In this document: one piece after another, positions 49,510 to 53,128 of the stretch
Position numbering within the stretch: position 1 is the first letter of the stretch
How the letters are laid out: the number at the start of each line of letters is the position of its first letter
DNA from: Alistipes sp.
GTDB lineage: Bacteria; Bacteroidota; Bacteroidia; Bacteroidales; Rikenellaceae
DNA length: 64,000 nucleotides
Direction: 5' to 3'
NCBI GenBank assembly: GCA_017623115.1
Contig: JAGAPT010000026.1
Span: 59,628-123,627, forward strand
Notes under the pieces: generated by a model
Told to the model about the DNA's origin: nothing
The model's input: only the letters and a program-made list of their open reading frames with translations
The model's database searches: none
Program-made: the position numbers and the translations under genes

Positions 49510-50388
49510 TTATATCGGGCTGAAACGCGACCGGCAGACAAACCACGGATTGTGCAAATCCTCCTCGTTATAGCGCAGCGACTCCTCCCCTTCCCAGCAT
49601 CGCGTCGAGCCACCGGCCTCCGCCAAAATCAACTCTCCGGCAGCCGTATCCCACTCATAGGTCAGCGAGGTGCGCACATAGTAGTCGACCATCCCTTCGG
49701 CCAACATACAGAACTTATACGACGAGCCCTGCTCCACCACCTCCAGATTTGGATACGTGCGGCGCAACGCCTCGATATGCGCCTCCGTTTCGGGCGTACA
49801 ATGCAGGCGCGAAACGGCAACACGCAACCCCTCATGTGCTGGCTCTGCACAGGTCGGCAACGCCACGCAATCGGACACAATATCCTCATAACTCCAATTG
49901 GCATCGGCTAACGGCTCGACATTCCGCTTCAGGTAGGCACCATAGCCATTGCCCGCCAGATAGATTTTCTTGAAATAGGGAACATAAATCACGGCACCGA
50001 TGCAGCGATTGTTCTCCATCAGGGCAATGTTAACCGTAAACTCGTTGTAGCCCTCGATAAATTCGGCCGTACCGTCGAGCGGATCGACCAACCAATAGAG
50101 TTCCCAGTTGCACCGCTCCTCATACCTCATCTCGCGCCCCTCCTCGCTAAGAATCGGGATACGGGTCGAGCCAAGCGTCTCGCGGATGATGCGATGCGCC
50201 TCGCGGTCAGCCAGCGTGATGGGGGTTTTATCGCTCTTCAGACTCACTTGATAATCGTCCCGATGGCCATGTATCTGCATAATGGCAGCACCGGCTCGCA
50301 CCGCGGCATTAAACATCGCAGGAAGCAGCATTTCGAGGACCTCTTGATGACTCATCGTTTCGGATGTGGTTACAGGTAATAAACTCAT
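49510..50388 (-). CDS. cysQ: 3'(2'),5'-bisphosphate nucleotidase, CysQ-like
   Basis: 292 residues from ATG 50388; an ATG at 50355 (MSHQEVLEMLLPAMF) is also plausible because the promoter predicts transcription from near 50395. Inositol-phosphatase fold with the Li-sensitive metal motifs: SDKTPITLADREAH, PILSEEGRE, WLVDPLDGTAEFIEG and YEWDTAAGELILAEAGG. CysQ removes the 3' phosphate from PAP made in sulfate assimilation; an inositol or other sugar phosphate is a possible alternative. The gene follows the three-gene membrane operon on the same strand after 115 bases but has its own promoter. Confidence 0.92.
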   Translation of the reverse strand: MSLLPVTTSETMSHQEVLEMLLPAMFNAAVRAGAAIMQIHGHRDDYQVSLKSDKTPITLADREAHRIIRETLGSTRIPILSEEGREMRYEERCNWELYWLVDPLDGTAEFIEGYNEFTVNIALMENNRCIGAVIYVPYFKKIYLAGNGYGAYLKRNVEPLADANWSYEDIVSDCVALPTCAEPAHEGLRVAVSRLHCTPETEAHIEALRRTYPNLEVVEQGSSYKFCMLAEGMVDYYVRTSLTYEWDTAAGELILAEAGGSTRCWEGEESLRYNEEDLHNPWFVCRSRFSPI

Positions 50389-50400
50389 CTTCTCGTGTAG

Positions 50401-50431
50401 TAAAGTTAAGCAATATTTTCGAAACAACAAC
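50401..50431 (-). promoter_or_regulatory. Promoter of cysQ
   Basis: Minus-strand GTTG (50431-50428), 19 bases, TAACTTTA (50408-50401). Confidence 0.5.
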
Positions 50432-50503
50432 GCTTTTTTACAACTATTTTGTATAAAAATACCCAAAGAGGCCTCAGCCACTCCGAATCAGAGCAATCGC
50501 CCG

Positions 50504-51346
50504 TTATACTTCGCCACAACCCACCTGCCGAAGACGTATTCCGACCAGCCACCATATCCCCGCTGTTACCCCGACAACACCCCCTTCGTACCACCGCCCA
50601 AGCAGCATCAGCCCGACCGCCATTCCGGCCACCAGCACACCGAACATCCGCCCTGCATACCCCTGCAGCCTCGGGTTGTACGATTTAGCAACGGCCGCAG
50701 GCAACACTCGCCACGAGAGTCTCCGACGATGGGCAAAGCCTCCCGCCTCGGACACCCGCCACCGCACATAGAGCGACACGGAGGCTCCCAGCGCACACGT
50801 AAGACGTGCCACGTGCGCCTCCCGACAGCGCATCTCCTCCACGAGCCAGCCCACCCGCTCCTTCCACAGACACACCTCTGCACCCAACGGTAACAGGTAG
50901 TCGTAGGCGGCCACATCGGCTGCCACATCCATGCGGACAACACGTTCTGCACGCGCCACATCGAGCACCACCAGCCGTCGGAAGCACCGTCGACGAGAGC
51001 GATAGAGTGCCGGCACCCCACATGTCGGAAAATCGCCCGTAGGTCGGTAGGCAACCGCAATCAACTGATAGCGACTGCGCAACCTACGTAACAGCTCCCC
51101 CTGCGCCCCGCCATCGACCACCGCAACCACCTCATAGCGGGGATATTCAACCATCAGTAACTGCTCGATTTGCTCCTCCGAGCACCCCTCGGCCAATATA
51201 ACCGAGAGCCCCTCAGGACCCGTCACATCACATTGCACACCCATCATCATCTGCTGCAAGCGTTGCGCCTCGGAGAGCAGGACAGCCCATCGCAACCACA
51301 CTGTCGCACCGACCGATAACAACACCAGCACCCCCATCAGCCACAT
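50504..51346 (-). CDS. GT2-like membrane protein lacking catalytic motifs
   Basis: 280 residues. One N-terminal membrane helix (1-24), a soluble domain (about 40-200) and two C-terminal helices (232-251, 254-272). The soluble domain starts like a GT-A glycosyltransferase (LSVILAEGCSEEQIEQLL, then YPRYEVVAVVDGG), but the region that should hold the DxD metal motif reads AAYDYLLPLGAEVCLW and has none, and no QxxRW is seen. So it looks like a pseudo-glycosyltransferase, or a very divergent one. The start overlaps the end of the HEAT gene by ten bases. The family name is an inference from the fold-like pattern. Confidence 0.7.
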   Translation of the reverse strand: MWLMGVLVLLSVGATVWLRWAVLLSEAQRLQQMMMGVQCDVTGPEGLSVILAEGCSEEQIEQLLMVEYPRYEVVAVVDGGAQGELLRRLRSRYQLIAVAYRPTGDFPTCGVPALYRSRRRCFRRLVVLDVARAERVVRMDVAADVAAYDYLLPLGAEVCLWKERVGWLVEEMRCREAHVARLTCALGASVSLYVRWRVSEAGGFAHRRRLSWRVLPAAVAKSYNPRLQGYAGRMFGVLVAGMAVGLMLLGRWYEGGVVGVTAGIWWLVGIRLRQVGCGEV

Positions 51347-52281
51347 ACCAACGACCGTTTATAGGAGCCTATCAACGCCCCATAGTACACCTCCTCGCCA
51401 AAGAGCCACCGCACCTGCCCCATGGCATACCCCTCGCCCGCCAAATAGCGCATCCATCGTTGCCGCTCCTGCGGGCTGAAACACCTCACACACTGCCGCA
51501 CGGCTCGATGACGGAGCGGAGCACGCAACACCACCAACACCCACAAGGCACGACGAGCCAGTTCCGCATCCTCTCCGGCAACCATCGTCAGCAGCGCATC
51601 CTCGGCCTCCTCAATGCCGAATTGCGCTACAATCGCCAGCCCCACACACCGCAAATTGGCGTAGGGCGACTCCAACAACGGGCGATAAGCAATTGGCACC
51701 AAACGACGACGCAGCAGATGCAACACCTCGGCCGCCTCACTCATCGTCAGTCGCGCTTCATAGGTAGCCACCAAACGAAGCAGTTCGGCCGGTTCGGCCA
51801 CCAACCCAACCAGCAAGGCACAAAAGCGCACCTGCTGGCACTTATCCGCACGATAACGCACCACCTCTGCCGCAATCGTCCGACTCATCGGCAGGTCGGC
51901 CAGTTGCTTCAAGTAACCGGCTCGCCGCACGCCTCGCGTCCGACGGATACGTCCGAGCAACCACCTCTCCAGTCCATAGCGACACACGACACCCCGCCAG
52001 GTAGTCATTGGCAACGCATAGACCGCAGTCCCGATACGACACAGCATATCAACCAACGCCTCGCGCCACCTCGGCAACCGTCCTATGGGGAGCGCGATCT
52101 CTTCGGGCACACGCTCCTCCAACAACAGCACCATCAGTTGCCGCACCACCCTGCGATAGCACGCCTGCACATAACCCCTCCGTCGCCGTGCCAGCCAGAC
52201 CAACACAACACGCCTAAGAAGCCCAACCAACCAGCACCCCATCACCGCTATGTAGAGTATATATCCGTATCGTACCATCAT
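51337..52281 (-). CDS. Membrane-anchored HEAT-repeat-like protein
   Basis: 314 residues from ATG 52281 (MMVRYGYILYIAVMGCWLVG); one N-terminal membrane helix, a basic stretch (RRVVLVWLARRRRGY) and then a helical-repeat region. Units such as YANLRCVGLAIVAQFGIEEA, then EDALLTMVAGEDAELARRAL show the HEAT pattern of paired helices. It is very rich in Arg and Leu and has no catalytic motif. The first bases overlap the pseudo-receiver gene (ATGA) and the last ten overlap the GT2-like gene, so the three are made together. It could be a scaffold between the two partners. Confidence 0.75.
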   Translation of the reverse strand: MMVRYGYILYIAVMGCWLVGLLRRVVLVWLARRRRGYVQACYRRVVRQLMVLLLEERVPEEIALPIGRLPRWREALVDMLCRIGTAVYALPMTTWRGVVCRYGLERWLLGRIRRTRGVRRAGYLKQLADLPMSRTIAAEVVRYRADKCQQVRFCALLVGLVAEPAELLRLVATYEARLTMSEAAEVLHLLRRRLVPIAYRPLLESPYANLRCVGLAIVAQFGIEEAEDALLTMVAGEDAELARRALWVLVVLRAPLRHRAVRQCVRCFSPQERQRWMRYLAGEGYAMGQVRWLFGEEVYYGALIGSYKRSLVCG

Positions 52282-52640
52282 CGCTCCAACACCCCGATTA
52301 CCTTTGCCCGTAACCGTCCCGGATTGAGCGGAAAAGTCATATATTGATCGACCCCGCACTCCAACATTCCCAACACGGTCTGCTCGGCCTGATGCCACGA
52401 GAGGAGATACACCTCGGGGCGACGCAAGGGGCGTGGACGCACTCTTCGCAGCACCTCCGCACCGCAACAAAACGGCCACACGCCCACCACCAACACCACC
52501 TCATAGACCAGCTGCTCGGTCAACCGATAGAAGGCGGCCAAATCCTCGGCCACGCGCACTTCAGCCTGCAGACCCATCAGCACCGCCCGCACCAACTCGG
52601 TACGCACCACATCGCTGGACAGAATCAATATACGCGCCAT
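52278..52640 (-). CDS. Degenerate receiver-domain protein
   Basis: 120 residues, one receiver (CheY-like) domain and nothing else. The hydrophobic strands fit (ARILILSSDVV, YEVVLVV, EVYLLSW, VDQYMTFPL), but the phosphorylation site is lost: the strand-3 end reads VVLVVGVWPFCCG with no Asp, and the conserved Lys is Phe in MTFPLNP. So it cannot be phosphorylated in the standard way. It has an unusually good ribosome-binding site (AAAGGAGAGAGGG) and is the first gene of the operon. It probably binds a partner rather than DNA, as it has no output domain. Confidence 0.75.
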   Translation of the reverse strand: MARILILSSDVVRTELVRAVLMGLQAEVRVAEDLAAFYRLTEQLVYEVVLVVGVWPFCCGAEVLRRVRPRPLRRPEVYLLSWHQAEQTVLGMLECGVDQYMTFPLNPGRLRAKVIGVLER

Positions 52641-52731: not shown

Positions 52732-52763
52732 TTTGCTTATCTGAAAATCTCAGCGTATATTTG
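52732..52763 (+). promoter_or_regulatory. Promoter of rplU-rpmA
   Basis: TTTG (52732-52735), 20 bases, TATATTTG (52756-52763), a near-perfect consensus. The leader of about 48 bases contains a small stem, GTGC and GCAC around seven bases (52775-52789). Confidence 0.75.
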
Positions 52764-52816: not shown

Positions 52817-53128
52817 ATGTACGTTATCGTAGAAATCGCAGGTCAGCAATTTAAGGCTGAGAAAGGTCGCAAGCTCTATGTTCACCGTCTCCAGGGCGAC
52901 GTAGATTCGTCCGTTAGCTTCGACAAAGTCCTGCTCGCAGACAACGACGGTCAGGTTAAAGTAGGTGCACCTGTAGTAGAAGGCGCCTCGGTTAAGTGCA
53001 AAATCCTGAAGCACCTGAAGGACGACAAGGTCCTGGTCTTCAAGAAGAAGCGTAGAACTGGTTATCAGAAGTGCAACGGTCACCGTCAGTACCTGACCCA
53101 GATTCTCGTGGAGGAGATTGTTGCGTAG
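52817..53128 (+). CDS. rplU: Ribosomal protein bL21
   Basis: 103 residues from ATG 52817 ([25 protein letters not shown]); the open frame upstream is the leader. [24 protein letters not shown] and [19 protein letters not shown] are the family motifs. It binds 23S rRNA in the 50S subunit. rpmA follows 27 bases later. Confidence 0.98.

Follow-up and report, generated by a model that had tools for sequence, protein, structure and literature searches.

Pseudo-receivers account for about 6% of bacterial receivers and are described as regulated by protein–protein contacts; one of them, FrzS, is bound via its α3–β4–α4 surface, and a review describes pseudo-receiver function outside plants as remarkably little known (PMC12632262). 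The review text contains none of the terms glycosyltransferase, Bacteroid, polysaccharide or single-domain, and "heat" occurs in the places shown only as part of heat map (PMC12632262). A literature search, with subscription literature mostly outside its scope, returned no description of an intact operon encoding a receiver, a HEAT protein and a family 2 glycosyltransferase (GT2), nor of a catalytically disarmed version of one. Both forms occur in the Bacteroidales, and here we compare a disarmed operon of the Rikenellaceae with its intact relatives in other families.

The DNA analyzed, hereafter the window, is a 64,000-nucleotide stretch of an Alistipes sp. contig from an assembly of 2.19 Mb. 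Three genes lie on its minus strand between positions 50504 and 52640 and encode a lone pseudo-receiver, a predicted membrane-anchored HEAT solenoid and a pseudo-glycosyltransferase with a GT-A fold. The first gene (52278–52640, minus strand) encodes the single-domain pseudo-receiver of 120 aa (PF00072, E 5.1e-8), the second (51337–52281, minus strand) encodes the HEAT α-solenoid of 314 aa, assigned from its structural model and Foldseek, and the third (50504–51346, minus strand) encodes the pseudo-glycosyltransferase of 280 aa, which carries membrane-type helices at its N- and C-termini. Of the three products, only the receiver scores above a Pfam cut-off (33.5 bits against PF00072, cut-off 30.2) and is thus recognized as such. 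The coordinates agree with the original prediction that the genes overlap, by 4 bases at the receiver/HEAT junction and by 10 bases at the HEAT/glycosyltransferase junction, and the 4-base overlap is present at 21 of 27 Alistipes loci.

The trio sits between two conserved neighbors. Downstream is a gene for a cysQ-like 3'(2'),5'-bisphosphate nucleotidase (49510–50481, minus strand; TIGR01331, E 2.4e-66), whose score of 223.9 bits falls slightly below the cut-off of 228.8 and whose coordinates are those of a listed open reading frame with a GTG start, so that the real start possibly lies further in. On the other side is a divergent open reading frame (52817–53128, plus strand) that we take to be rplU (bL21). 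Over 100 loci, cysQ and rplU gave 83 and 81 ORF hits, respectively. Several sister-genus loci (within L117–L138) carry a GH31-type gene between the pseudo-glycosyltransferase and cysQ that is absent from Alistipes loci; one of these genes was tested by profile, which identified it as GH31 and ruled out YaiO, and the rest were judged by eye. A sigma-70 promoter scan gave no match, and terminator-like sites were no more numerous than in shuffled sequence. The Bacteroidota-type promoter pattern consists of TTTG, a spacer and TAnnTTTG; five such sites occur in the window against 0.25 expected, one of them ahead of rplU (52732–52763, plus strand) and none of them serving the operon. A PADLOC search with the three proteins returned no matches at E 0.1, and an anti-phage defense system was rejected as a candidate.

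Relatives of the operon were sought across the order in 344 Bacteroidales genomes, 34 of which matched the HEAT profile at 1e-6. Genomic context was read for 21 of the 33 matches outside the window's own genome (20 loci plus locus L030). At 19 of the 21, a receiver precedes HEAT on the same strand, and a GT2 lies within reach at 20, all with QRxRW, GGK, DxD and ED motifs (a stricter DxD pattern missed three whose alignment shows DVD). The receivers of these other families carry the phosphoacceptor Asp in 18 of 19 cases and the conserved Lys in 18 of 19. A YaiO-type ORF, scored by a profile grown from the barrel of L030, which is itself YaiO by TIGR04390 and PF19413, is present in 18 of the 21 stretches, in one of them on the opposite strand, and the GT2 of L030 is nearest to PgaC/IcaA. 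This intact receiver–YaiO–HEAT–GT2 operon (L030:5962–10217 and L218–L236) recurs in many Bacteroidales families. From its parts it would be a polymer-making operon, and the placement of a lone receiver before a processive GT2 suggests that a polysaccharide synthase may be under phosphorylation control. In one intact operon, the HEAT protein (L230:3752–5716) additionally matches a SPOR domain (PF05036, E 4.2e-5), hinting at a link to peptidoglycan.

The window operon has the gene order of these relatives and lacks both the GT2 motifs and the YaiO barrel. YaiO (PF19413) gave no match in the window's own genome, and it was found in 6 of 112 family genomes, within open frames of 952–1044 aa. Since the operon is missing two features that its intact relatives have, the name polysaccharide synthase is unfit for it. 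Its relationship to the Bacteroidales polysaccharide-synthase operon is nonetheless well supported by the homologous operons of other families, and in the simplest history the Rikenellaceae form would derive from an intact-type operon, a direction that we infer. Two readings were put forward in the original prediction: the trio could be a device assembled from pseudo-domains, or an exopolysaccharide synthase system in decay. These readings combine: the relationship to a polysaccharide synthase stands on the intact homologues, and simple decay is not supported. We favor, with a probability of roughly 0.55, the reading that this operon is related to the polysaccharide-synthase operon, most simply as its descendant, and has been catalytically disarmed, with its three genes maintained together and forming a phosphorylation-independent scaffold or regulator around a HEAT hub.

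The glycosyltransferase-like protein illustrates the loss of catalytic motifs. AlphaFold models were made from the window proteins and from proteins of named loci, and the model of this protein (pLDDT 84.8) adopts a GT-A fold. The window protein scores below threshold against Glyco_tranf_2_3, and Glycos_transf_2 is matched by 9 of the 56 members of its alignment. As judged by alignment alone, none of 92 family proteins (75 from Alistipes and 17 from sister genera) retains the aligned ED pair, the DxD pair or QxxRW, and the K of GGK persists in two. The metal-binding DxD and the catalytic base of GT family 2 are thus gone and the GT-A fold is retained, in line with the earlier claim of a GT2-like protein lacking DxD and QxxRW, which held across all 92 proteins in an alignment with intact GT2s. 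Misalignment masking the catalytic residues was considered and rejected: the 92 sequences were aligned with two intact glycosyltransferases and whole proteins were searched by regular expression, and the sole QxxRW matches (L032 and L057) fall outside the aligned column. A PDB search with the glycosyltransferase profile found no solved relative at E 0.1. A motif common to intact GT2 relatives does survive in the window protein as YRSRRRCFRRL (residues 115–125; 50972–51004, minus strand). The R and S of this Y-R-S motif are each present in 88 of the 92 family proteins, and Y-K/R-S is found in 21 of 21 intact GT2s.

Two special forms of the scaffold reading assign the pseudo-glycosyltransferase a more specific role. 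In the first, it would act as a sugar-nucleotide sensor, binding nucleotides or nucleotide sugars with no turnover and signaling through HEAT and the pseudo-receiver. The predicted GT-A fold is consistent with this role, as are the Asp that comes first in the nucleotide site of that fold, with D at the aligned position in 76 of 92 family proteins, and GG(F/Y), kept in 82 of 92; but the Lys of GGK and the DxD site are lost, and the PAxNE-type loop of L030 is absent from the aligned family sequences, so that we regard a sensor as improbable. In the second, the protein would pair with a GT2-type enzyme encoded elsewhere, activating it or targeting it to the membrane. Some glycosyltransferases are known to have inactive partner subunits, which provides a precedent, and the window's own genome contains seven PF13641 matches, six of them over the cut-off, any of which could supply the active partner. 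The stretches read contain no second glycosyltransferase at the locus, which speaks against such a pairing, and we consider it a rather unlikely specialization of the scaffold.

Losses in the receiver are likewise shared across the family. In the window protein, the phosphoacceptor column holds V52 (codon 52485–52487, minus strand) in place of Asp, the Lys column holds F103, and the acidic pair is absent. The Lys column in 96 family receivers contains F (56), L (38), T (1) and Y (1) and never K, and no family receiver has an intact acidic pair, extending to the family the loss of Lys that the original prediction described, along with that of the phosphoacceptor Asp, in this lone receiver. The phosphosite column is more varied, with L in 45, V in 12, D in 7 and E in 7 of the 96 receivers. 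Those D-bearing (5) and E-bearing (7) receivers that are present on a CysQ tree (FastTree, 81 loci, drawn with no support values) fall, with one G-bearing row, into a single nested clade of Alistipes, a placement that implies either late regain or many losses of the acidic residue. At eight Alistipes loci whose receiver phosphosite is D or E (L051, L053, L054, L055, L155, L166, L168 and L169), the HEAT and glycosyltransferase frames are also shortened.

These acidic residues raise the question of whether a residual phosphorelay operates in some species, with Asp-bearing receivers still phosphorylated by a histidine kinase. The clustering of the D and E receivers in one clade and the six HisKA matches in the window's own genome are compatible with such a relay. 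Because Lys is missing, however, no D or E receiver has a normal site; this loss extends to 96 of 96 receivers, the acidic pair is intact in none, and the window receiver itself has V at the site. Phosphorelay thus appears very improbable. A Glu at this position could mimic phosphorylation, and the HisKA proteins could, like the PF13641-type proteins, be partners of the complex.

Conservation in the pseudo-receiver is concentrated elsewhere. Column entropy is lowest, and conservation therefore highest, across residues 91–114 (52299–52370, minus strand), a stretch that includes Q99, R109, L110 and K113 and that by fold runs from the end of α4 to the start of α5. R109 is present in 94 of 96 family receivers, whereas other families have E at this position in 11 of 19; K113 is present in 93 of 96 (R in 9 and K in 3 of 19 in other families), Q99 in 84 of 96 (D in 11 of 19), and L92 in 79 of 96 (A in 17 of 19). 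Three positions before the Lys column, an aromatic residue is retained in 91 of 96 family receivers (Y in 81, F in 10), suggesting that the receiver output face has outlasted the chemistry.

The HEAT protein is recognizable mainly by its predicted structure. Its model (pLDDT 93.9) consists of helices along its whole length, the N-terminal one being long (residues 2–55), with antiparallel helical repeats arranged as a solenoid. Foldseek ranks HEAT-like or alphaRep solenoids highest, the top match having an E of 0.012 and none reaching E 0.001. By itself the window protein gave no HEAT match in Pfam, HEAT_2 is found in 10 of the 58 members of its alignment, and a PDB sequence search gave two matches, neither significant. 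Within the N-terminal helix lies a hydrophobic segment (residues 11–29; 52195–52251, minus strand) with a hydropathy of 1.86; the hydropathy scan also marks residues 153–171, within the solenoid. The model and this segment are in keeping with the earlier description of the second gene product as a membrane-anchored HEAT-like protein, and would place a helical-repeat solenoid at the membrane.

How widely the trio is distributed bears on whether it is functional. A search with the single glycosyltransferase sequence found it in 27 of 37 Alistipes genomes, counting that of the window, and in 2 of 24 genomes of other Bacteroidales families, and the receiver, HEAT and glycosyltransferase genes occur in order at 27 of 27 Alistipes loci. 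In a search of 200 genomes of the family, taken as Rikenellaceae, the HEAT profile matched 91 genomes from 10 of 22 genera; HEAT was present in 69 of at least 112 Alistipes genomes, a total made up of 107 rows with a match and 5 without, to which up to 5 more may be added. Of 98 family loci, 91 contain all three genes, five contain receiver and HEAT, one contains HEAT and glycosyltransferase, and one contains HEAT only, the last two both lying at contig ends; as these loci were picked by glycosyltransferase or HEAT hits, the counts do not gauge how often the set breaks up. Six of the 98 loci lack a recognizable glycosyltransferase, and three of these come from one sister genus. In a named collection, 60 related loci bore the names Alistipes, Rikenellaceae or, in one case, unspecified Bacteroidales, and 57 of them contain all three genes. 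The receiver and glycosyltransferase losses are common across species, covering Alistipes and nine sampled sister genera, and a strain-specific pseudogene is therefore rejected.

Presence is nevertheless patchy. In eight of nine complete genomes examined, the rplU/cysQ junction holds no trio gene; in the ninth (G159), a receiver-like ORF remains there, and a tenth genome gave no CysQ. Two further loci show damage. In G158 (L139:4701–5689), the receiver is intact and HEAT is cut after about 111 residues, continuing in frame into what appears by eye to be the C-terminal helix region of the glycosyltransferase, which looks like a deletion in progress. In G123 (L130:3680–4366), a stop codon splits the receiver frame and HEAT and the glycosyltransferase are open. 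A few other matched rows from the genus and family searches contain one stop codon.

Selection was assessed from dN/dS, for which finite values were drawn from 30 of 35 close pairs; dS above 1 is near saturation, pairs with infinite dS yield no ratio, and frames here and in the mirror-tree analysis below run from stop to stop, so that some leading residues are non-coding. Ratios were 0.07–0.31 for the receiver, 0.08–0.40 for HEAT and 0.10–0.42 for the glycosyltransferase (0.65 for one fragment of 84 codons). The CysQ control gave 0.03–0.18, lower than the trio in nearly all pairs, and the short rplU control gave 0–0.31 on very small dS. Mean protein identity was 0.29–0.37 for the trio, below that of CysQ (0.66) and of the rplU product (0.91). 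The original prediction would have been overturned by losses unique to this strain under relaxed selection; instead, the losses span the sampled family and dN/dS lies below 1 in these close pairs.

Together, these data allow slow decay to be weighed, in which the trio would be a functionless remnant of a polysaccharide synthase that is being lost lineage by lineage. Patchy presence across family genomes, the empty sites, the lone receiver-like ORF in G159, the lesions in G158 and G123, the fast divergence of the trio and the shorter HEAT and glycosyltransferase of one clade would all be expected of a remnant. Against this, dN/dS is mostly 0.1–0.4 in all three genes, the matched glycosyltransferase frames of 29 genomes contain no stops, the overlaps are kept, the trio persists in ten genera, and the receiver has near-invariant residues that intact relatives lack. 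We consider decay unlikely, and conclude that the trio is dispensable, yet under selection where present.

Under the favored scaffold reading, the events in the sampled Rikenellaceae would have been departure of the barrel from the locus and loss of the GT2 motifs and receiver phosphorylation residues, with the trio kept as a set. HEAT would sit at the inner membrane via its N-terminal helix and act as the hub, the pseudo-receiver would dock on it by the α4–β5–α5 side, and the pseudo-glycosyltransferase would dock by its remaining GT-A surface. The complex may then act on some envelope process as a phosphorylation-independent, non-enzymatic scaffold or regulator. Two observations are suggestive of HEAT as the hub. 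First, one sister-genus genome (G160, L136:943–2115) encodes a natural single-frame fusion of pseudo-receiver (aa 31–139) and HEAT (aa 167–338), with no recognizable glycosyltransferase. Second, partial rank correlations of protein distances over 63 Alistipes loci were 0.49 for receiver–HEAT and 0.52 for HEAT–glycosyltransferase given the remaining genes, and 0.14 for receiver–glycosyltransferase given HEAT (controls 0.13–0.32), values to be read with the non-independence of mirror-tree distances and the adjacency of the genes in mind.

A stronger form of this proposal holds that a phosphorylation-gated synthase became a membrane scaffold free of catalysis. Its enzyme, switch and exporter would each have been disarmed or lost, the receiver–HEAT–glycosyltransferase assembly would have been kept with new conserved contact residues, and every former enzyme or switch would now be a pseudo-domain. 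We advance this form tentatively and think it somewhat doubtful. Many complete relatives cleanly lack the operon, which counts against the strong form of the original reading as a device. The disarmed synthase operon is itself real and common to relatives, and it has probably been reused as a scaffold. The intact receiver–YaiO–HEAT–GT2 operons represent a possible phosphorylation-controlled polysaccharide system, and with intact and disarmed operons in different families a gene-by-gene comparison is possible. A pseudo-receiver and a pseudo-glycosyltransferase in one operon also provide a natural test of a synthase complex without synthesis, in a common gut genus.

Compared with known systems, each part of the operon resembles an established family and departs from it. 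Bacterial pseudo-receivers such as FrzS have the PF00072 fold without active-site residues, as does the window receiver, which from its sequence fits the pseudo-receiver definition in the review (PMC12632262). HEAT-like solenoids, with alphaRep, INTS4 and CpcE/F among the Foldseek matches, share the helical-repeat solenoid of the window HEAT protein, which differs in its membrane-type N-terminal helix and in having no significant PDB sequence relative. The PgaC/IcaA-type processive GT2 (TIGR03937) is the best NCBIfam match of the L030 GT2 (2.5e-38) and the sole match of the window glycosyltransferase-like protein (0.0013); both fall far below the cut-off of the model, and the window protein lacks the catalytic motifs. 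The closest counterparts are the intact Bacteroidales operons, which share with the window trio a homologous receiver, HEAT protein and GT2 in equal order and the Y-K/R-S motif, but differ in having a GT2 with GGK, DxD, ED and QRxRW, receivers nearly all of which have Asp and Lys, and, usually, a nearby YaiO-type barrel.
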